Made by a program: the position numbers and the translations under genes. 64,000 bases of DNA from Lepidurus packardi (taxonomy: Eukaryota > Arthropoda > Branchiopoda > Notostraca > Triopsidae): the NCBI GenBank assembly GCA_023053545.1, contig JAKZAN010000002.1, positions 10,102,790 to 10,166,789 on the forward strand. The letters run 5' to 3'. Positions within the stretch are counted from its first letter, which is position 1, and every line of letters begins with the position of its first letter. This document shows positions 1,961 to 62,412 of the stretch, one piece after another. The notes under the pieces were generated by a model, which worked only from the letters and a program-made list of their open reading frames with translations, searched no databases and had not been told where the DNA came from.

Positions 1961-4172
1961 AAGTTTTAGGATAATTAGGATACTGGTGCCTAACGTTATT
2001 TTAATTTGTTTTTATTTTTCGCGGTTGTGATTTTTGGGCTGGGATGAAATTAAAATTGCATGTCATTCGCAAGGCTAAATTACGTTGTCCGATGAGCAGC
2101 TCACGGAAATGGGGGGAAGTGCACCTACATTCGTGTTAGCCATATGGCGAAACAAGGGGTAGGCGGGGGTGCGAGGTTTGGGTGGGGAAAACTCGACTCG
2201 GTACCCCCCTTGTCGCTAATCAATACGCCGCGAAAGTCCAGGTGACAACCCAAAAGAAGCCCAGTTTGCCTTGTTTGGATTCCCATAGTACTTGTCCTTT
2301 TTTACTCACCTTTTTTTCCCTCAAGTCATGCGTTTGGTGTTTGTTTTCATTTATGGAGTACTCGCTTGTCTTGCCCTGGTTCGTAAACTCTCCTACCAAG
2401 GATTTTTGCATCAAAAAGAGACCAAAGAAAATCTTGTGTTGTTACCTGGGATACTTTACCTGGAAAAGGGAGCTGAAAATAGTCACAAATCACGTGGTGT
2501 TTATGTGCGTTTCCCGGAACCACGCCGTTTTTGTTACCTATTGTAAAGTAAGACATGACTTTGAGGTTTTAGTACGTTTACTTGCACTATTTTACAAATT
2601 TTGACTTTAAAATTGTGTATTTTAAATTGGTAAAGCTCAAGATAACCGCATTCAGAGGTTTGAAACACCTAGTTTGGAGATAACTTCGTAGACATTCTTA
2701 ACGGAGCCGAATCAACAGATTCGACCAAGATGTTTTGTAAAAAGAAAAAAAAACAGGGGAATATTTTAAATACGGATAACTTAGAAGAGACTGAAATACT
2801 ACAGGCAAACTGAAGTACGTGCTGGAGCTGTACTTGCTTTATTCTTTTTAAGAGGATAACAGTCGTAGTTAGAAAAGGGGAAAAAAGAAGACGAGCCGAA
2901 TAGAGGAAGTAAAGGCTTGTTGTAGGCTATTTTAGTGGTCTTGACGAAGTCGCAAAGTCGACGTCTGGGCGTCCCGGCGCCCTCCCCTGTAAATAACACT
3001 CCAGGGTTTTAGGTTTCCTTATTTCCTTTACTACCAAACGCCTCCGATGAAAACTTTTGATGTGTTATTCTGAGGATTTATCGTCGGCTCTGCACAGACG
3101 AGCTATGTAAATTTACCCAACTATTTGTTCTTCGTTTCTTTCTTTGCTGTTATCAAGGCGGGATAAGGTTTCGGTGTATAGGCTGTGATTTGTTGGCGGA
3201 AGTCTGGTCAAAAAGGTGGTAGGACTAATTACTTAATTCGTAGGGTTTGAGGAGGGACGTAGAGAGTGACGTAAGAGTGCAGACACACCGCACCCTGCGC
3301 CAAGCTTGTTTTCTTCAGCTTGCTAGCTCTAGAAGCCCCCGTTACATACATATCCATAGAGCAGGGCCAAGACCCGGCTTTAAATTGTCCTTCTCGAAAA
3401 GCTCCTCAACAAGCAACCCCCCTCCCCAAATGCTGGAATGGGCGGTATGTCAAGGCGGCGCCGCGTGGCGTCCAGACAGATGACGGATGACTTGGACAAG
3501 GGAAGAAAAACCGATGTTCCCATAGCAATAGAGGAAGTATATACGTACCGTGTACGGCTACATAGGCAAGCTACCTAGAAATCGTTTGTAGGGGGGAAGT
3601 ATGACAAACTTTGCTAAAAAAGCAAACCTAAGGAAAGTGGACAAGAAGATAGGCGAAAATAAAAATACAGAGATGGGAAGTGAAGAAAAGCAAATGCGAA
3701 AAGGTGAAAGAGAGGGAATCATGAACTAGACGAAAAAGGAAGAGGGTCCCTTGTTCCTTTGAAGTTTTACCTATGGGTAAAGGTCCCTATACATACACCT
3801 CATTGCCATCTCACCTGGAGCTTTGGAATGATAGCTAACTCTCTCCCTTTACTCTTCGGTATTATAATGACTGGCTTGGCCAGATTCCCGAAGCTCATGA
3901 ATCTGTATAGAACCCTAGTCTATGTGCATAATTTCGAAGTAACCCCATTTGTTGTAGTCTAGCAAGTAAAAACAACACCAATAAGCATTTAATTGGTTCC
4001 GTGACTACATCGGTGTGAGCAAAACATATTAGTTCTAGGAGATAGCTTAGGAGAACGTTTGTATGATATAACCACGATATAAGCTAACTACGCTTGGATT
4101 TATGTTTTATAGGGTTATGTTTGAACGGTTAAAGTAGCAACTTCCTCATTCAGCGCAATAGTTATTGAAATG

Positions 4173-6662: not shown

Positions 6663-13125
<6,463 letters not shown>

Positions 13126-28738: not shown

Positions 28739-38617
<9,879 letters not shown>

Positions 38618-43558: not shown

Positions 43559-45314
43559 ATGCGGTCGAATCTCGCTTTCCTACTGGTGTTCTTTTGCGCA
43601 ACCACAAAAGGTAAATGCTTAACTCATAAAATATCCTATCAAAACCGAATAAAGGATTTTGGTTTTACTATTCTCCTTTGCAGCTTTGTCAATATCCCCC
43701 ATCCGAAGTTTGAAAAATAGGTATGATTTTCCTCGAGATACCAAAGAAGATGCGGCCGCTCTGGAGAATCGTTGCTGTGCACGACAAGCGAAACAGCAGC
43801 AAATCGGTTACGGTAAAATTTCCAACCATGTATCCTGGCAATGGATACGTGAATTGCAATGGGTTAAAACCTTTCATTGTGAATTAGGCATTGACGGGGA
43901 AGCTTTATACGTCGACGTGGGCCAGTGTCGCAAAACATGCTCTAAAAAGACTAAAATCCATCGGAAAGAGTTTGAATCAATTTTGAAAGCCAACAGTTCG
44001 GTAGATCCCATCGAAGTAAAACTGAATTTTGCTTAACGCTTCATAAGTGAGCTAATTGGTATACAATTATAATAGTTATTCTTGGCTATGCAACGCGATA
44101 TGGCCCCTTCCTCATGCGGCGAAGAGACAACGTGTGAAGGCACCCGTACACGCATGGAACGACATATGACACTGTCCGGACTGCAGCAAGTGGCCGTGCT
44201 GGAAGATTGTCTCTGCACTGCACAGCCTTCGGCCTGTCAAAGGACCCCCAACCTGGTCGTCTATTTTCCCGGCACACCTTTCGAAAAGACCATTGACATG
44301 GGAGCCTGTCACGGAGCTTGTTCGTCAGGTAACATGAAATCTTAATAATACTGCTTTAGGATTACGATTTTCTTGAATGAAAGACCTGTGGGGACTTCTG
44401 CAAGTCTTAGCTACTGGAGGCGAAAAGCTAGGCGCGGTGATTTATGTGTTACTGTCACATTGACATGTAAATCACACTGATTGATTGGCAATAGAACTCC
44501 AATGCAGGTGCCACTTTTGGGCACCATGCCCAGTGACATGAACCACACCTTGCTTTTCAAAGTCCTTTCCAATTCAAGTCCACTTCTGTAGTAAGCCGAT
44601 TACCAAAGAGACAACAAGGGGTACATATTAACGAGAAATGAAGTATCCTCTCTTCTCAAAAAGAAGCGGCCTTGTCCCATTAACCTATAACAAAAAAGCT
44701 TTAAATGTATTTATTATATTTTTAAGGATTTTTCTTTTTGTTCTCCTTTTTTTATAGATTTGGGATGTCGCCCAGTTCGTAATCGGACGGTGGCCATTCC
44801 TGGTCCCAATGGCGATGAGTGCGTGCCGATAATTGAAGAGTGCAACTGCCAAGGCTCTTGTTATCGTATGACTCAACTAGAACACATCTACGACTACTCC
44901 AATGTCCAAGCTGGGGAAGATGAGGATGAGGAAGACAAAGAGCCACTGCTCAAAGTCGTCGATGTTGGACACTGCATTGGGATTTGCGATGGAGTACATC
45001 GTAAACATCAGTGCGTCATCAGGTAAGAAATATATACACACATACGTGCAACAAAATTAAATGTAAAATAGCAAGGATTTGCAATCTTAACTTACCTACA
45101 ACCACAAAAAGGGAATGTAATGGGAAAGACGATTTTCTAGCATTGAAATGTACTTTGTTTTTAAAGAGATTCGGAGGATCAAACCCGATGTCTGATGTCC
45201 CTAGCTAGGCAGGAGAATAATTGCGGACCAGTTGCCTTCGAACTTCAACGTTACAAAGCCGAAAACGGCGACGAGAAAAATCTGATGGCCATAACGGAGT
45301 GCGGCTGCCAGTGA
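43559..45314 (+). CDS. pnhd: Pinhead-like secreted cystine-knot protein
   Basis: Five exons (43559-43610, 43684-44015, 44076-44328, 44758-45022, 45167-45314) encode 349 residues. The first 18 residues are a signal peptide (NLAFLLVFFCATTKA). The rest has three cysteine-rich blocks that look like cystine-knot modules: the first around NRCCARQAKQQQ and VDVGQCRKTC, the second around EDCLCTAQPSACQ and DMGACHGACSS, the third around VVDVGHCIGICDG, ending ECGCQ. VGxCxxxC and CxC endings recur. An acidic stretch (EDEDEEDKE) separates the second and third. This architecture, and the position just upstream of an ADMP-like gene in the same direction, fits Pinhead, a secreted antagonist of Admp in ascidians. 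Exon 2 to 3 uses a 60-base intron that avoids a stop; I chose it because it keeps the frame. The assignment rests on synteny as well as sequence. Confidence 0.8.
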
Positions 45315-46524
45315 TACCCACACACTTCCATTTCCAAGTTTGTCCCGAGGTTTTCAAACCCATTTTACCCATGCCAAGCTTTTGCCATTGCCCGTCGCTA
45401 ATTGTATACCCAGAACTTGCTTTAGGTTCTCTCTTTTCTCTCCTCTTTCTCTTTTTCTTCCCTCCCTGCTGTAAATATACTTCCCCACAACTAGAAACAA
45501 CTTGATTTACCTAAGAAAAAGACAACAAGGGGAGGAAAATGGATATGAATTATTGTAGAAACCCAGAGAGATGACCTGATATTTGTTTCAAAGACATTCA
45601 TGGAGGCTCAGTGCTTATACTATTAAGCTTTTGGAGAAATTGCAAATACATTTTCTAAAATCAAAAATTCCAAGAAAGTCTCATGGTGAGAGCATATGTT
45701 TTCAAAGCGACTCAATGCATTTTTGGATGCTAAAAACGGACGGCGCCTGGGATCAGCAGGGAAGCTTTACGTTGACATGTTGGCCATGCTTTCACAGCTC
45801 ATTATATCTGTCGTAACCTCAACAGGGTTTTGAATCAGAGGGCTATTTCACAGAATGTGCGCTTGAAAATCGATGACTGTGACTGGAATGCATACCCAAT
45901 AAGGCGCGTCTCTCCGCAGGCATGTCCTCTCCATGGCAGAAATGCTTGCAAAACGTCACCAAGAATCCATTTTCTCTCCATATAGCTCGTAACCGTTCGG
46001 TTCGTAGAACCCTAAGCCTGATACCAAAAATGTCCTTCCCAAAATTAGCGTCCTGCAAGAGAATGCTATTTTTCTTGTGCAATTTATGGTCTATAATGTT
46101 CAGCTATTCTAGTCATCTGGTATGCAAAGATAGAAAGGCAATACGAGACAAATGAGTCAAAGCCGAGTCCAAAAGCGTCCCATCATCTCGTCCATGAGGT
46201 TATGCGTGTGATAAGTAAGCGCGGGATGAAGGGAATTCTCGGCGACACCAGGCGTTTATGGAATTTGGCATCCAATATTAAAAGCTCACCTTTTTTTATC
46301 CATATGAGTGTGTGCATCGCTCTTTTTCCCCCCCTTTCTTGGCCCCTGTGGAAGTAAGGTATTGGTCGGTGATTGGCCCGCAGAGGAATGTCTCCGCAGC
46401 ATGTGTCCACCGCCCCTCGCTGATTTAAAGTGGCCAAAGCGACGTATGCCATCCCAGTAATCAGTGGCTGATCCAACGCTTCACGTGCGACAATCCTAGC
46501 CGATTCTTCCTTCAGACGCAAACC
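45315..46524. promoter_or_regulatory. Pinhead-ADMP intergenic region
   Basis: These 1.2 kb separate the Pinhead stop from the ADMP start and should contain the Pinhead 3' UTR and the ADMP promoter. In Ciona the Admp enhancer lies in the corresponding interval. I see no open frame with family resemblance and no clear TATA box. Confidence 0.5.
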
Positions 46525-47908
46525 ATGAAGAGTCTCCTAGTGCTTTGTACCCTGCTCGCAGGTCTGCTAAACCAGTGTTCAAGTATGGCAGTGGATAAAA
46601 CTGAATCCATGGACAAAGACGCTGCTTACAAAAAATTATTACAGGTAAAACAAACTTCCATCATTTCTCTACCGAAAATCCTCATTGTTTTATTTTTTGG
46701 GGTGCGGTACATTTGAAGGTGTTTGGCGTGGAAGACCCTGCAGCTCCCAAGAACCCTCAACCCCCACCGCAATACATGTTGAACTTGTATAAGAGCATTG
46801 CTGATCGAGACGGCATCACACGTGCGCCCAATCCTTACAACGCCAAAGTCATTCGGAGCTTTGTGGAAAAGGGTAGGACTGCTTAAAATTTGAATTTTTA
46901 CCTTCATAAAACTTATCCGTGACTCTTGGAAAAACAACTTTCAGAATGGGAAACGTCTTCTCATCCTCACCTCGCTTTTAACATCACCGGTTTGGGTGCG
47001 TCTGAGCATCTTCTCGAAGCTGAGTTACATGTGTACCGCCTCAAAAGCCAAGGCCTTCAGCCCCATAAAGTACATAATTACATAAATCTTACCAACACTG
47101 CCATACTAAAGAAAAAAATCCTTTTAGGTGAGCGTATACGAAGTATTGGACCCTAAATGGTTAAACGAGCCCGAGAAGAATCGCCTAGTGGATTGGCATT
47201 ATGTTAGCAGTCCTACACCTGGCTGGGAAGTTTTCCGCATCCGCTCAGCCATTAAAGACTGGTTCTATAGTACGCAAACTAATTACGGCTTTCTCGTGGT
47301 CGCCACGACCGCTTCTGGTAAAAAGGTTGATGTTAAGTTTTCCCGGCGAGCTGATGGCCACCGCAATCGTCAACCTATCTTGGTCCTTTTCAACGATGAA
47401 CCTTCTAAGCAACGGGTTAATACAGGTATGCGTAACTTTGGGGGGAAAAATGGAGCCTATAGTTCAGATTATCATGTATATATTTCAAATTATAAATATT
47501 CAAATGACTCTTCACAGGCACTGAAGAATACAGTAGCTTGGAAGAAGAAAACGAAGTTACTTGGCGAGTCAAGCGTTCAACACGTGGCACACGGAATGTC
47601 ATAAAGCTGAACTGTATGTGGATTTTGAGCGAATTGGCTGGTCATCTTGGATCATATCTCCTAAGGGCTACAATGCTTATCACTGTACTGGCCAGTGCAC
47701 ATTTCCATTAGGGCAAAGCCAGCGTCCAACGAACCACGCTACCGTCCAGAGTATCGTCCATGACTTAGGCTTGGCTGTCGGAGTCGACAAGCCTTGTTGC
47801 GTCCCGAGTCGTTTGCTGTCCCTCAGTCTTTTGTATTATGACGACAATGAGAATGTGGTTCTTAAGCAGTACGACGAAATGGTCGCAGACAGCTGTGGAT
47901 GTCATTAA
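46525..47908 (+). CDS. Admp: ADMP-type BMP ligand, with an apparent frame break
   Basis: Exons 46525-46644, 46719-46872, 46945-47069, 47128-47425 and 47518-47908. The N-terminus is a signal peptide (SLLVLCTLLAGLLNQCSS), followed by a TGF-beta propeptide with PPPQYMLNLYKSIAD. The mature domain begins CHKAELYVDFERIGW and has the seven cysteines of the family, including YHCTGQCTFPLG, KPCCVPSRL and the C-terminal DSCGCH. The PLGQSQRPTNHATVQSIVH segment and VVLKQYDEMV favour a BMP/ADMP type. With canonical splicing, exon 5 is read as EEYSSLEEENEVTWRVKRST, with a furin site RVKR, but the mature domain lies one frame away; the switch falls near 47595. A second furin-like RRKR exists in the mature frame. 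Either a one-base error, a real frameshift or an alternative splice is involved. The ligand should form dimers that signal through BMP receptors. Confidence 0.85.
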
Positions 47909-51107: not shown

Positions 51108-51294
51108 ATCGCTTCTCGGCCTTTTGGCTAAGATCAAAGTGTAGTATCTGTTCTTATCAGCTTAATATCTGATACGATTCCCATGTGGAATCCAGTATAT
51201 TAAACTGATTTTTGGAAACTGGCGGAGTGCTGGGGCTTGCTCCACCTCCGCCGCGGGTTGGCCTGGAATTGCAGTACCTCCGGGATCGGCCCAT
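51108..51294 (+). ncRNA. U2: U2 spliceosomal snRNA
   Basis: The 5' end ATCGCTTCTCGGCCTTTTGG is the invariant U2 start. It is followed by GTGTAGTATCTGTT with the branch-site-pairing GTAGTA, stem-loop II (TTATCAGCTTAATATCTGATA), the Sm site in GATTTTTGGA, stem-loop III and the stem-loop IV core TTGCAGTACCTCC. The length of about 187 bases matches animal U2 (188 in human). The 3' end is estimated. U2 base-pairs with the intron branch site in the spliceosome. The gene looks intact and could be functional. Confidence 0.96.
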
Positions 51295-52147
51295 TCCCTC
51301 CGGGGGAATAAACTATTAAAATTAATTTCTTTTACGATTTAATACATTTGCTTTCTTAGTTTCTCCTTGTGTATCTAAAATGCTATAGCCTAACTGTATA
51401 CAGCAGTGTGTGTTGATCAGTTATTTTTTATCCATTTGCAAAGATGAAAAATTATCGCCTTGCCTTCGGTTTCAAAACTAAAAAAGATATGTTACAGAAC
51501 AAACCAATTCATGTATTCTTACTCCTATGTTAATTATTCATACTAACTGCGCGGCTAATTATTTCGCGGAATAGGCCTAGCCCCTTCCTGCTAAATTTCC
51601 CCAGACAACTAGTCGGCGAGCTAGCGCGTTTACTTACAAGCGCATCAAAAATCGACCCAGGGAATCATAGTAACGGTACATTTATCTTTTACTAATCTGT
51701 AAATCATTTATCATAGGAACGGTACATTAATGCTTAAGAAAGTCTTACATGCTTAGGTTAATTTAAAAACTCGATCATACAATAGTGAGTTTTGGGTTTT
51801 TAAAAATAAAAGGTTGGGCGAGTCACACCAAAAGACAGGCAAATTGCAGAACAAGCACTATGAGACGGCGTTCTAACCAAGTATTTCAATTACCCTACCT
51901 TTTTTGTCAGTTGGCGTCGCTTTGCCAAAATCCGTATGGCTGCTTAAACTCATGACGACTTATTTTCGTCTCACTCAAAGTGATTATGCAAAAATTATAA
52001 AAAAAATATAAGTGATATAAGTCCAGACCATAATACAAGTCGTATTTTTATAAATCGAACAAATATGTTTCACTACCTACAGAGTTACACTTTGCACCAC
52101 ATCCGTCGTATTTATAGAAGTTTCAAAGCGTAATTTTTGTAGAATAT

Positions 52148-56677: not shown

Positions 56678-58076
56678 TTAGGAGCACGATTGTAATTGAG
56701 TTGTTATATATGGAATTCTGCTAAGAAAGCGAGTTTTGTACCGGTGCATTCCCAAATCTTCTTTAAGAGGCGTTACACATCCATCATCCGTTACACGGTA
56801 ATGATGACTAAATCCGTATTTGGTGTTGACAGCGAATGATTTTTGTCCTACCCCTTGGCGATAATTGAAATGGCAGCCATTTTCTATTATTCTCCTTGGT
56901 CGTACAATTAACTTGGATCGAAAAGCAAATGGATGGTAATGAACTCTGCGTAAAGTTTTTGTGAACGTATAGTATGGCTGCAATTCAGATTCTAGGGCCG
57001 GAGTCTGCTTTCCGTCTTCGCATTGAAGAGCGAAGAAATTATTTTTGAATATGAAAGTAGCAGTGGTCATAGGATCTGCAATTGTGTTCAACGTGGAGAT
57101 CAGATCAGCTAAAGTGTCTTGATATTCCGGTACGATGAACTCATCCACGTCAATAATGAGTAAATAATCGTGCTGGAAACGAAGACGATAGATGCAATCA
57201 TTAAAACCGGCATACAAGGAAGCGCCAACGATTTCTCTTCCAAATTTCAAGTCATTATGAAATGGAAAGACCGACACGATCCCTTCTTGAAGGTATTTTT
57301 CTAGTAAGCATTCTGCGTCTGGGCTTATTGAATTGGCATAAAATGTGAAATGATCAACACCTAGCATTCGGTTTAGTTCAATGAATTCAATTAATCTGTG
57401 TGTATAACTCCAGTTTCCGTATAAAGGAGCTACACATACTCCAATTGATGCTTTATGGGGGTCGATTTCTTCATGGTCTTTAACAGATTTATTAGCATTA
57501 GCCACTACGAGCAGGTTCCCGGAAGGAATGGCGTGCAAGATCTTCACAGGGTCGTTCAACTTTGGCAAAGTATCTTTGTCGAAAGAGCTGCCCACGGAGA
57601 CGTAAAGCAGGCACGGGTAAGCCTTCCAGAGGACACAAAACATACAAAGCACTGTAAGGCCGATCAGTCTTGTATCCGATTAGCTGAACAACTGCTGGTA
57701 CAATTATCCATTCCATTTCACGAAAAGAGTTCCTGGTGGTGTTTCGATAGGCAAATGCACAAAATAATACATGTTGAAATGATTTCTTGCCTACTGCAAT
57801 AACTAGAATCTTTCGTTGGTTTTCTGAGTCATCATAGTAAGCTGAATACACGTAAAAACGATCGGGTACAAGTTGTACCTTTTGAAAGTCACACTCAAAT
57901 CTTTCAAAACAGCGCTGGAAATCCTGAGATAAATTTCGTTCCCATTGCGTTGAAATCTGCTCTTCGATCAAGTTTCCTGGTTTCTTAGTCTGCGATCTTG
58001 TCAAAGGATTCCATGTCCAAAAAACAAGAATACCAAAAACTGAAGCAAGAGCCACTCTCTTAGTCGAATGACGCAT
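56678..58076 (-). CDS. Glycosyltransferase family 92 (DUF23) protein with a frame break
   Basis: An intronless minus-strand gene of about 466 codons. It begins with a short basic tail and a membrane anchor (RVALASVFGILVFWTW). FYVYSAYYDDSENQRKILVI is the conserved GT92 start (YVFSAYYDDR in the family). The catalytic core has VCVAPLYGNWSYTHRLIEFI, LGVDHFTFYANSI, DYLLIIDVDEFIVPEY (the DxD metal site) and the late conserved His in SHHYRV. The first part (58076 to about 57605) is in one frame and the rest in the next, the switch falling near 57601-57606 between PVPA and VSVGSSFDKD. No GT-AG intron can bridge it. So it is either a pseudogene or a one-base error. GT92 enzymes add galactose to N-glycan cores in the Golgi in worms. 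Confidence 0.78.
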
Positions 58077-60446
58077 TTTCTTCGACTGTATGTAGGCTAC
58101 TACCAGATTGAGACCAAAATACACTCGACATTTTATATACTCGACTTAAGTTTTAAGGAGCTTTTTTTATTTAACAGACAACTGTTTATATAATACACCA
58201 ATAGCGACAATTTCAGTTCAGGTTTTAGGAAATGAAACAATAAACTATTCTTTCAAAGACACAAGTGGGGCAAACACGCGACTTATTTAACGGACATACA
58301 TATTGCGAAAAAACACTTGCTTGAGAATGGGTTTTCCTTATTGTTTCAGGAAAACTGTTCCAAAGTTGATATTCGTCAACGCGAAAAGGTGTTCACAAGT
58401 TTTCTTGCTAATGTATTTGTCAAAAGAAAGGAAGTAAGAAAATTATACACGTAGGCTATACCAAGGGCGCCACACTTGTTAAGCATTACGAACTGCACGC
58501 CTTCAACTATTCGAGTATCTATATTTAAATATGTTCCCATTAGATGGCACAGTTTTGACTAAAAACTGTACTTAAACTGTGTGCCATGCAGTACCGAAAA
58601 TTGCCGCCCGGTTTTAGGAATGACACAACAAATTAGCATTCAAAGACACAGGTGGGGCGAAAACAGGAGGCAGTAAACGATAAATCGGCTCCGACCAAAG
58701 TTCCGGCTTATTGTTTATTTCTGTTGTCGAATAACACATTTCTTCGACTGTATGTACTACCAGATTGAGACCAAAATATACTCGACCTTTTATATACTCG
58801 ACTTAAGTTTTAAGGAGCTTTGTAATGAAGTACTAAGAGTTACCTTAGTGATAAGAGTCCTGCGTTGTGTTTGATTGTTTTACTATAGGATGGCTACCAG
58901 TTTAAGAGAAAGTAAGAAACGCAACACAGAAATTACTATTAAATGTAATCTTATTGTTCAGAAGCAACTTGCACTTCACTGTGTTAACACGTAAGAAAGA
59001 AAGAAAGATCAGGAGTCTCACTGTATTAGAATTTAGGTTGTCCTCGTAACTGTGTCTGAGTTGAGACTGATTTGTCAGCACTAAGTAATGTCCGAGAACA
59101 GTTCGGTTTTCTACTATAGTTTACAGAGAGGGGGCAGAAGGTTTAAAGAGACTCGCCTAAAGGGGGTGAGTATGTATTACAGATGGACAGTTATTTAGAT
59201 AGATTATTCCCTCAGTTTGTGGGAAACAGACTGAGGCCCGTTCGCTAGTAGTAATACGAGAGGTGGGGTAACATGAATGTCAATGGAAGGAAACCAGGCC
59301 TACGGATTCAAGGGAAACGTCTTCAAGTTACGAGGTAACTTGCTAAGGAAATTAGGCTAGGGTTAAAAGACACATAACAGCTTTAGGTATAGAGTGGCCA
59401 GTACAACTATTGAATCCCATCTACGAATTAGGAGTTCAGATCTTCATAGCAAGCTTTGTTTATTTAACAGACAAATGTTTATATAATATACCAGACAATA
59501 CCCAAAATTTCAGTCCGGTTTTAGGATATGAAACAATAAACTATTCTTTCAAAGACACAAGTAGGGCAAACACGCGCCTTTTTAACCGACATATTTTTGT
59601 ATTGCGGAAGGAAAACACTTGCTTGAGAATGGGTTTTCCTTATTGTTTCAGGAAAACTATTCCAAAATTGATGTTCCCCAACGCGAAAAGATGTACACTA
59701 GTTTTCTTGCTAATATATTTGTCAAAAGAAAGGAAGTAAGAAAATTATACAAGTATACCAAGGGCGCCACACTTGTTAACCATTACGAACTGCACGCCTT
59801 CAACTATTGGAGTATCTATATTTAAACTGTACGAGCAAGACGGCATTTTATGATCCTAAAATCTAATTTTTTAGGAAAACGTATTGATTTGATCATTTTC
59901 AACTGAAACATGGCATTCACACAAAAGTCGTTTTGCATCAGTTTGAAACTAATTACTCAGTTAAAATAGAAAAATATACGTAGGGGTTCAGCGACAACAT
60001 ACAAGTTTTCATGCTTAGTTATAAACTCAATCTTATTTTTTACCTTATGATTTTATTCCCTTTAAATTGATCGCTTATATATTTAATAGGTCGTTTGATG
60101 TATATATGTAGTGAGCCTATCATAAAACTAAAGATTTATATCCGTAAATTCAGAAAATACGAAAAGGTTACATAAAAAAGAGTTTATACCTATAATTTTT
60201 AAGTAAACTGGCTTTTAAGTCTATCTAATTGGCATGATAACTATCCCATAAAGTTTTCACCTGCCTTTTTTACTGCATTATAATGCAGTCTGTAGATATA
60301 TCTACATATTCACCATAGAGCATTTAGGTAAACCAACTAAAATACGTTTCCTGTTTAATTCCTCTACTGTCCAGAAATGGGCGTATAGAGAGCATCACAG
60401 TCTATCCACGGAAAAGGACATTACAATATTTCCTTACGTTTTCACC
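58077..60446. repeat. Multiplied upstream DNA of the GT92 gene
   Basis: A 370-base segment at 58160-58530 recurs at 59450-59826 with about 90 percent identity by eye. A part of it (the GGTTTTAGGAA...CAAAGACACA core) recurs a third time at about 58600-58680. The 5' flank of GT92 (58079-58160, TTCTTCGACTGTATGTAGG onward) recurs at 58740-58825. All copies have the same orientation, so a tandem duplication followed by deletion is likely. No coding exon seen in this stretch. Confidence 0.8.
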
Positions 60447-62412
60447 CTATGTCCGCAAAGTCAGGACGACGTCAAAAGGCAACGGACTTAAAATGAACGA
60501 AGCACGCGGGATCAACGACGGTTTGGGTTGGCCGGCTGGCAATCCAAACTTAAATTGTTGTAGCAGGGCCGTAGCGAAAAGGAACAATTCAATTTTTGCC
60601 AAGCTTTCTCCTATGCATACTCTTTTCCCTGAGGGGTGAAAATGAACTAAAACATTATTTTCGGAGAAATATAGACTGTTTACCAATAGCGAACGGAATG
60701 AATTGGTCCACGTGTTTAACCCTTCCGTCGTTGGTTAGGAAATGTTCCGGGTAAAACTCATCTGGTTTTTCCCAAGTTTTTGGATCGTGCAAGACTTGGT
60801 ACAAGTTGGGTACAATCATTGTATCTTTCGGAATGTTATACCCCTTAAACTCTATCAATTCGTTAGACAATTGAGCTACCGAAGTTTCGCTCTATAAGAC
60901 AGTTTACTTGTTTCGTCTGTGGAGTAGTGAAAAGCGCCTAAAGGTACCAAGGAAGCAAATCTTTGACATTCCATTAATACAGCTTCTGTATACGGCAAAC
61001 TGTTAAAAAAAACTTTGAGTCTTAGCAAAATTACACAAGTGATAGTTTACTTCGCTTTGTCGTCCATTGAAGGAAGTCTTTCCTTACCGACGAAGGTATC
61101 CAACTCTTTTTGGACTTGTTCTTGAATATTAGGATGAGTGGCTAACAGCAAGAAAACCCATAGCAAAGTGGTGGATGTCGTTTCTGAGCCAGCAGCGAAC
61201 AAATCCAAAGTGCTGACGACCAGATTAGCCACTGTTAAGACCCACAATTAAAACACGTCCTTTCTCTATATCTTACTAAGCATAATAATATCTTACTTCC
61301 GTCTTCGCCGGTAAAAGGCGTGGGCTTTCCTGTTTTTTCATCTTGCAGGACTTTATCCAAGAACACGTGCATAAAATCACTAGCGTCTCCTTCTCGGTGG
61401 GCTTCTATGTGCTCGTTAATAATTTCCTGGTACAAGAAAACTATTATTTCATCCCACAACATAGTTTGGTACTATTCTTACCCTAAACATAGATTTGTTG
61501 TTGTTAATGAAGTTAATAAATTTTTTAGGAAGGCCGTTCACCAGGCTTAAAATTGGAATAAGTTGCGTTAATTGAGTACCTGCTCCCTCACCAATAAACC
61601 TTCACCAATAGTAAGCAGCAATAAGAATACTAACAGAAAAAATTCCTACATATCTTTTACTTGTTCAACTGCTCTATTCTATGTGTTGCTACTGGATCTT
61701 CTAGCTCAAACCGTTGTCCGGTTGTGATAGTCCACAGCGCGTTGACTACGGCCAGATTGAAAGTGTTATGCAATTTAATAGGTTTTCCAATGCTTCGCCT
61801 AAAATCAATCAGTTTCAAGATTATTATTATTTAGTCGTACAGTTAGAATAACTCACTTGAAAGATTCCGCTAATTCCCGAATTTCTTCTTGGATAACTCT
61901 TTCAAGACTGGACTTGCCAAACCCAAGGTCTCGCAAATGTCTCAGCGTGAAACGTCGAACCTCGTTCCAATTATGACCATCAGAAAACAATATGCCTATT
62001 GACAAAAAGTTGAACCAAACCATACACAAGAAGTTTAAAACCTATCAACCTTTGTTATTTGAACGGAACTTAAAAAATGGGAAAGGCGGACGCCCTGTGA
62101 ATGTTTCTTCCTTAAAGGCATCTCTGATAAGTTCGTAAGAACTTAGGACGACTGCTCGATAGCCACCCATGTTGATACTGAAGATGTCTCCGTAGTTCTC
62201 AGACAAGTCACGTAAGGTGAGATACGGCCGTTTACCCAGAAACGGCAAGTAGCCGACAACAGGCAAGTTCCATGGTCCTTTTATTTACATATTACTAATA
62301 TTTATGAATTTGATTTAGTGATTAACCTACCAGGAGGATAATTAGATGGCCGAGCCGTTAACTTGTACAGCAGGTAGCCAAGAATCAAAGCTATCGTAAC
62401 CGGCAGCCACAT
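60447..62412 (-). CDS. Cytochrome P450, CYP2 clan
   Basis: Ten exons on the minus strand (62412-62331, 62277-62050, 61995-61857, 61798-61661, 61599-61482, 61426-61297, 61231-61051, 60999-60908, 60875-60684, 60628-60447) encode 493 residues. The N-terminus is a membrane anchor (LPVTIALILGYLLYKL) with a proline-rich hinge. The C helix has WNEVR, the I helix AAGSETTST, the K helix ExxR as ECQR, the meander PDEFYPEHFL, and the heme-binding loop FAIGKRVCIGE with the cysteine ligand. These motifs and the GPWNLPVVGYLPFLGK start place it in the CYP2 clan, endoplasmic-reticulum monooxygenases. The subfamily (possibly the crustacean CYP370 group) and substrate cannot be assigned by eye. The acceptor of exon 9 (GGTAG|CTC) was chosen as the only one that keeps the frame. 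Confidence 0.93.

Follow-up and report, generated by a model that had tools for sequence, protein, structure and literature searches.

Do two adjacent genes at positions 43559-47908 of a 64,000-nucleotide stretch of the Lepidurus packardi genome form a Pinhead–ADMP tandem, and does their closeness matter? The stretch, hereafter the window, was G000:C2:10102790-10166789 (contig JAKZAN010000002.1) in a genome of 108.6 Mb. The order of Pinhead followed by the BMP-type ligand ADMP is known from other animals. The locus in the window is probably such a tandem and one of two in this genome, derived from an ancestral unit whose two genes were duplicated together, with order, orientation and approximate spacing kept while the sequences became saturated with changes. 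The gene arrangement is of a known kind; here the unit is duplicated.

The first gene, Pinhead-A, began with an ATG at 43559 and spanned 43559-45314. The second gene, ADMP-A, spanned 46525-47908, with its stop codon ending at 47908. Both genes were on the forward strand, and after correction of the last Pinhead exon the distance from the Pinhead-A stop (45314) to the ADMP-A ATG (46525) was 1,210 bp (intergenic stretch 45315-46524, +). An earlier note on this DNA had described a Pinhead gene followed in the same direction, about 1.2 kb downstream, by a ligand gene within 43559-47908. The gene models bore out this order, orientation and spacing, and the limits were exact: the start was the Pinhead-like ATG and the end was the ligand stop codon. 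The note had also called both genes secreted cystine-knot genes. An N-terminal hydrophobic leader was read by eye in Pinhead-A and ADMP-A alike, the ligand carried seven cysteines, and Pinhead had a putative cystine-knot-like layout. Neither a second pair nor a frame break in the ligand was among the observations of that note.

A second pair (pair B; the window pair is pair A) was found on the same chromosome at G000:C2:10867885-10872756, on the minus strand and in opposite orientation, approximately 717 kb from pair A. Here Pinhead-B (nine exons, 375 aa) was followed by ADMP-B (five exons, 394 aa, continuous frame) at a distance of 1,065 bp. The mature ligand of the window had a 78% match at C2:10867888-10868205 (-), and the Pinhead-like protein had matches of 46% at C2:10871378-10871608 (-) and 47% at C2:10870833-10870928 (-). 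Given both family assignments, Pinhead lay directly upstream of ADMP on the same strand at both loci. Because the same two-gene order recurs elsewhere in the genome, chance was excluded as the cause of the arrangement. No third pair came up when the genome was searched with the mature ligand and with each of the Pinheads.

All four ADMP-A introns (phases 0, 1, 0, 1) had counterparts of the same phase and in the same order in ADMP-B. The same was true of the four Pinhead-A introns (phases 1, 0, 1, 2) in Pinhead-B, which had four further introns. On the protein alignments six of these eight intron positions were exactly aligned between the pairs; Pinhead intron 3, next to a gap, was shifted by one or two residues, and the linker that holds ADMP intron 4 was too variable for alignment. 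One acceptor among the introns used was weak (-0.6 bits); judged by its sequence it is probably that of Pinhead-B exon 6, and this boundary is therefore uncertain. According to a hand calculation for a genome of 108.6 Mb, the odds that a Pinhead copy would by chance end up no more than about 1.1 kb upstream of an ADMP copy, and on the correct strand, are about five in a million. Since the chance odds are this low, Pinhead and ADMP were most likely copied together as one unit.

The pair duplication is old. Pinhead-A and Pinhead-B were identical at 125 of 312 aligned residues (40%), the ADMP propeptides at 43% of 251 and the mature ADMP domains at 80% of 104. Pinhead had therefore diverged far more than mature ADMP, and the ADMP propeptide had diverged as much as Pinhead. 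The proportion of synonymous differences (pS) between the pairs was saturated in all three parts (Pinhead 0.85, ADMP propeptide 0.80, mature ADMP 0.78), which places the duplication far back, with the unit linked ever since. The proportion of nonsynonymous differences (pN) was 0.42 for Pinhead, 0.41 for the ADMP propeptide and 0.114 for mature ADMP. The low value for the mature domain at saturated pS points to long and strong purifying selection on the mature ligands.

When 1,414 open stretches of at least 30 aa from the 69.8 kb around pair B were compared with the window (E-values up to 1e-3), no shared flanking genes besides the pair were found. The comparison yielded 18 rows: nine hit the pair itself, in sense or in antisense, and the other nine a dispersed repeat at 9838-9997. 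This repeat recurred near pair B (L018, about 3280-3720), with matches in both orientations.

The ADMP-A model consisted of five exons on the forward strand: exon 1 (46525-46644), encoding the leader peptide; exon 2 (46719-46872), of 154 nt and equal in length to ADMP-B exon 2; exon 3 (46945-47069) and exon 4 (47128-47425), both encoding propeptide; and exon 5 (47518-47908), encoding the propeptide end, a furin-type site, the mature ligand with seven cysteines and the stop. Searched apart, the joined propeptide matched Pfam TGFb_propeptide (E 9.9e-25) and the mature part matched Pfam TGF_beta (E 1.2e-35), so that ADMP-A combined the propeptide with a seven-cysteine mature domain as expected of this class. 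A CBM96 match of 21.7 bits (cut-off 26) overlapped the propeptide match in 46525-47579 and is probably due to chance.

Which BMP-class ligand this is was addressed with solved structures, a genome-wide family search and a tree. Human BMP3 was the nearest solved structure to the mature domain (PDB 2qcq, E 4.3e-39), followed by BMP6, BMP7 and BMP2; among the best 60 of 65 PDB matches none was named ADMP. A scan of viral contigs with the mature ligand gave no match. The whole-genome search found at least 12 matching stretches (a lower bound), which gave ten ligand genes after the adjacent exons of two genes were merged. Besides ADMP-A and ADMP-B, five further ligands were named by nearest structure: BMP2/4 (C1:5392k), BMP9/10 (C3:12554k), BMP3 (C5:11018k, in full C5:11018503-11019285), a myostatin/GDF11 type (C2:7184k) and an activin type (C2:9383k). 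Mature-domain identity was 80% between the two ADMP paralogues; the remaining ligands of the genome showed 27-55% over the matched parts.

The tree was built from 17 mature domains: eight human references and all ten genome ligands except C5:6442k. The domain is short, the designated outgroup was not set apart from the rest by any single branch, and four of the 14 inner branches were starred. ADMP-A and ADMP-B were sisters (93/91). The genome's own BMP3 formed a clade with human BMP3 (98/97) beside them, and all four grouped together (92/92). Other genes of the genome fell with BMP2 (93/93) and BMP9/10 (99/95). The BMP5-8 assignment was weaker (83/85), since it concerned a partial domain (C5:1509k) grouping with BMP6 at a fork shared with the very long row C4:2844k, whose own position is uncertain. 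In this tree the window ligand was distinct from BMP2/4, BMP5-8, BMP9/10, BMP3 and GDF5. It lies on the ADMP/BMP3 branch, and ADMP is the best assignment, by exclusion, by the Pinhead neighbor and because a separate BMP3 gene exists in the genome. Of what the earlier note had said of the second gene, a BMP-class ligand stood and ADMP was reached by exclusion and linkage.

An orthologue of BMP3 (GDF10-type) in place of ADMP would agree with human BMP3 being the best structural match of the mature domain and with the position of both ligands beside BMP3 in the tree. This identity is very unlikely and was rejected, as the separate gene at C5:11018503-11019285 takes that place: it, and neither the window ligand nor its paralogue, grouped with human BMP3 alone. 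That gene shares the CACR ending of human BMP3 and scored 163.9 bits to BMP3 as against 118.8 for the next structure. Forcing both window-type ligands to group with human BMP3 alone was weakly rejected (approximately unbiased test, p-AU 0.0486), and one arthropod is reported with both ADMP and BMP3 (PMC4244043).

Pinhead-A encoded a secreted-type protein of 349 residues in five exons (all +): exon 1 (43559-43610), encoding the leader peptide and ending in phase 1 as does Pinhead-B exon 1; exon 2 (43684-44015), most of repeat 1; exon 3 (44076-44328), the end of repeat 1 and the start of repeat 2, with 46% identity to Pinhead-B exon 5; exon 4 (44758-45022), the end of repeat 2 and the start of repeat 3; and exon 5 (45167-45314), with the stop. 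The start of exon 5 was moved from 45209 to 45167 because coding similarity to Pinhead-B extended upstream. The added residues RCLMSLA matched Pinhead-B, and the acceptor at 45166 kept the frame and was better by eye.

The protein was composed of three consecutive units, each ending in CxC. The six units of the two paralogues aligned on the pattern C...GxC...C...G...CxC, and CxGxC occurred in four of the six, both first units lacking it. For the three unit pairs of Pinhead-A, full shuffles attained the local alignment score in 1, 14 and 1 of 1000 cases, and shuffles with cysteines fixed did so in 7, 11 and 2 of 1000. For Pinhead-B, the scores of units 1-2 and 2-3 were reached by none of 1000 full shuffles, and by 0 and 5 of 1000 with cysteines fixed; units 1 and 3 did not match (581 full and 597 cysteine-fixed shuffles of 1000). 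The natural reading is that Pinhead consists of three cystine-knot-like repeats. Known Pinheads are secreted, cysteine-rich proteins with cystine-knot-like repeats.

A Pfam scan of the Pinhead-like protein (first model, 335 residues) gave no model up to E 0.1, and neither Pfam nor PDB held a useful model or chain match for it. A profile of the six repeats gave two rows against PDB, the best at E 0.17, both unrelated proteins. The Pinhead identity proposed in the earlier note was partly supported: its position next to ADMP at both loci, the secreted, cystine-knot-like layout and the absence of matches to another family speak for it. Since neither Pfam nor PDB settles the family, the gene might instead encode a different secreted antagonist with a cystine knot (DAN, Noggin or bursicon type), lying there by accident. 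The DAN, Noggin and bursicon families are covered by Pfam and were absent from the scan results, and at both loci the same divergent protein was the immediate upstream neighbor of an ADMP-type ligand, which makes this explanation highly improbable.

Several observations weigh against a duplicated Pinhead–ADMP unit whose linkage is functional. The family membership of both genes is assigned by exclusion and linkage, and the support for the two ADMPs as sisters (93/91) was below the star threshold. The ADMP-A frame was broken by one base between the cleavage site and the mature ligand in this assembly. Between the intergenic stretches of the two pairs, 12 of 100 dinucleotide shuffles attained the alignment score, for which gaps were permissive; the top 18-base block, with 15 matches, was equalled or beaten in 7 of 20 plain shuffles. 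Genes with 1 kb between them might also remain neighbors simply because the genome is compact. In zebrafish, Pinhead is described as a BMP-like ligand and not as an antagonist (PMC8753366, PMC8034876).

The frame break was located by homology to ADMP-B and by reading of the sequence to a zone at 47580-47593 (+). After the intron at 47426-47517, exon 5 ran in one frame (RVKRSTRGTR; EVTWRVKRSTRGTR), and the mature domain (ECHKAELYVDF) was in another. ADMP-A consequently did not have a continuous frame from leader to stop, whereas ADMP-B did. A second basic stretch, RRKR, lay in the mature frame just upstream, so that an alternative splice might in principle connect to it. Of the 25 GT-AG introns that would keep the frame, none was convincing among the best eight seen. 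The best scored 7.5 bits and skipped most of the exon 4 propeptide, compared with 14.4 bits for the modelled intron; splice weights were built from 19 introns of the four Pinhead and ADMP genes themselves. The assembly contained no second haplotype copy of the broken stretch, the matches being the window itself and ADMP-B.

ADMP-A might thus be a recently broken gene whose function is carried by pair B, as the one-base break, the lack of a well-scoring alternative splice and the intact ADMP-B would suggest. We regard this as improbable: the mature domain was fully open and strongly conserved (pN 0.114 at saturated pS), so that any loss must have been very recent. With the mature domain so well conserved, a single-base assembly error appears to be the simplest cause of the break.

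If the two genes work as their chordate counterparts do, ADMP would be a secreted, dimeric BMP-type ligand processed by cleavage at a basic site, and Pinhead, with its three cystine-knot-like repeats, would likewise be secreted and would bind and act on ADMP outside the cell. The ancestral unit, Pinhead upstream and ADMP about 1 kb downstream on the same strand, would have been duplicated as a whole. Expression of the two genes would be opposed and mutually exclusive, and adjacency is proposed to help this exclusivity because transcription of Pinhead would interfere with the control DNA of ADMP. For Ciona, Imai is said to have described in 2012 both the antagonism of Admp by Pinhead and repression in cis, to have stated that the tandem is found from arthropods to vertebrates, and reportedly proposed the adjacency itself as part of the patterning mechanism. 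The double repression that the earlier note envisaged for a crustacean, with repression in cis as in Ciona, may apply here by analogy. Linkage that has lasted in both copies agrees either with repression in cis or with passive retention.

Passive retention would mean an old, unbroken tandem in a compact genome, in which the proteins may interact and the adjacency has no regulatory role. We give it somewhat less than an even chance. The likeness of the two intergenic stretches was within chance level, as was that of the 2 kb upstream of the pairs (score reached in 34 of 100 shuffles). Close neighbors would rarely separate, and the compared regions offered no other duplicated neighbor pair to calibrate against. 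On the other hand, order, orientation and a spacing of roughly 1.1-1.2 kb have survived in two copies past synonymous saturation, and a cis effect is reported for Ciona. The motif GRCGNCN5GTCT is a BMP-response silencer; the window had one match to it, at 10647, as against 0.41 expected, and L016 had none.

Two ancient copies of the unit offer an internal replicate, within one animal, for whether the neighbors must stay together. Opposed expression in both copies would favor the cis model, whereas its loss in a copy that has stayed linked would mean passive linkage. A more tentative idea is that the two ancient modules, still linked in cis, have specialized as two patterning circuits in which fast-evolving Pinheads (40% identity) discriminate between two slowly evolving ADMPs (80% in the mature domain). 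The analysis also corrected the annotation of the window, at the last Pinhead exon and at the broken ADMP frame.

The locus shares with the Ciona and vertebrate tandem a Pinhead-type gene directly upstream of an ADMP-type ligand gene on the same strand, both encoding secreted proteins. It differs in that the unit is present twice and that the window ADMP frame is broken in this assembly. Pinhead is described as an ADMP regulator (PMC11226491), and zebrafish Pinhead and Admp are described as reciprocally repressed, with each of them furthering the degradation of Chordin (PMC8034876, PMC8753366). Sea urchins and acorn worms likewise have two ADMP paralogues, the paired admp1 and admp2 genes (PMC4600745); here each ADMP has its own Pinhead neighbor, and PMC4600745 makes no mention of Pinhead. 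Two ADMP genes are also described for bryozoans (PMC13121700). Human BMP3 (PDB 2qcq), the nearest solved-structure relative, differs in that a separate BMP3 gene of this genome lies elsewhere, on contig C5. Within arthropods, the literature gives ADMP in Strigamia (PMC4244043) and in Nasonia and Gryllus (PMC8051952), and Drosophila as lacking it (PMC4244043); arthropod tests therefore need another animal. Among the matches listed, none described a duplicated Pinhead–ADMP unit in its title or the start of its abstract; subscription papers lay outside this search, and such a unit may be in print.

Other genes were recognized around the tandem. Upstream of Pinhead was a gene of protein kinase D type, with a C1 domain at 34306-34653 (+, E 1e-14) and a kinase piece at 37673-37984 (+) read by eye. 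A long protein kinase exon was present at 11392-13122 (+, E 2.5e-38); by eye it resembled the DYRK1A/minibrain type and had a low-complexity tail. A full-length U2 spliceosomal RNA gene lay at 51108-51299 (+, 179.4 bits), 3.2 kb downstream of ADMP-A. A glycosyltransferase family 92 gene occupied 56681-58145 (-, E 1.1e-34); an open stretch in another frame at 57501-58145 had no Pfam match and by eye resembled the N-terminal part of the glycosyltransferase, which would imply an intron or a second frame break. Cytochrome P450 fragments were seen by eye at 60450-62284 (-). Elsewhere in the genome, globin matches were paired within each unit at G000:C3:8691666-8698346 and 8583227-8584012 (-), with three units head to tail, which supports a branchiopod source and agrees with the crustacean of the earlier note; clusters of two-domain globins (haemoglobins) are typical of water fleas.

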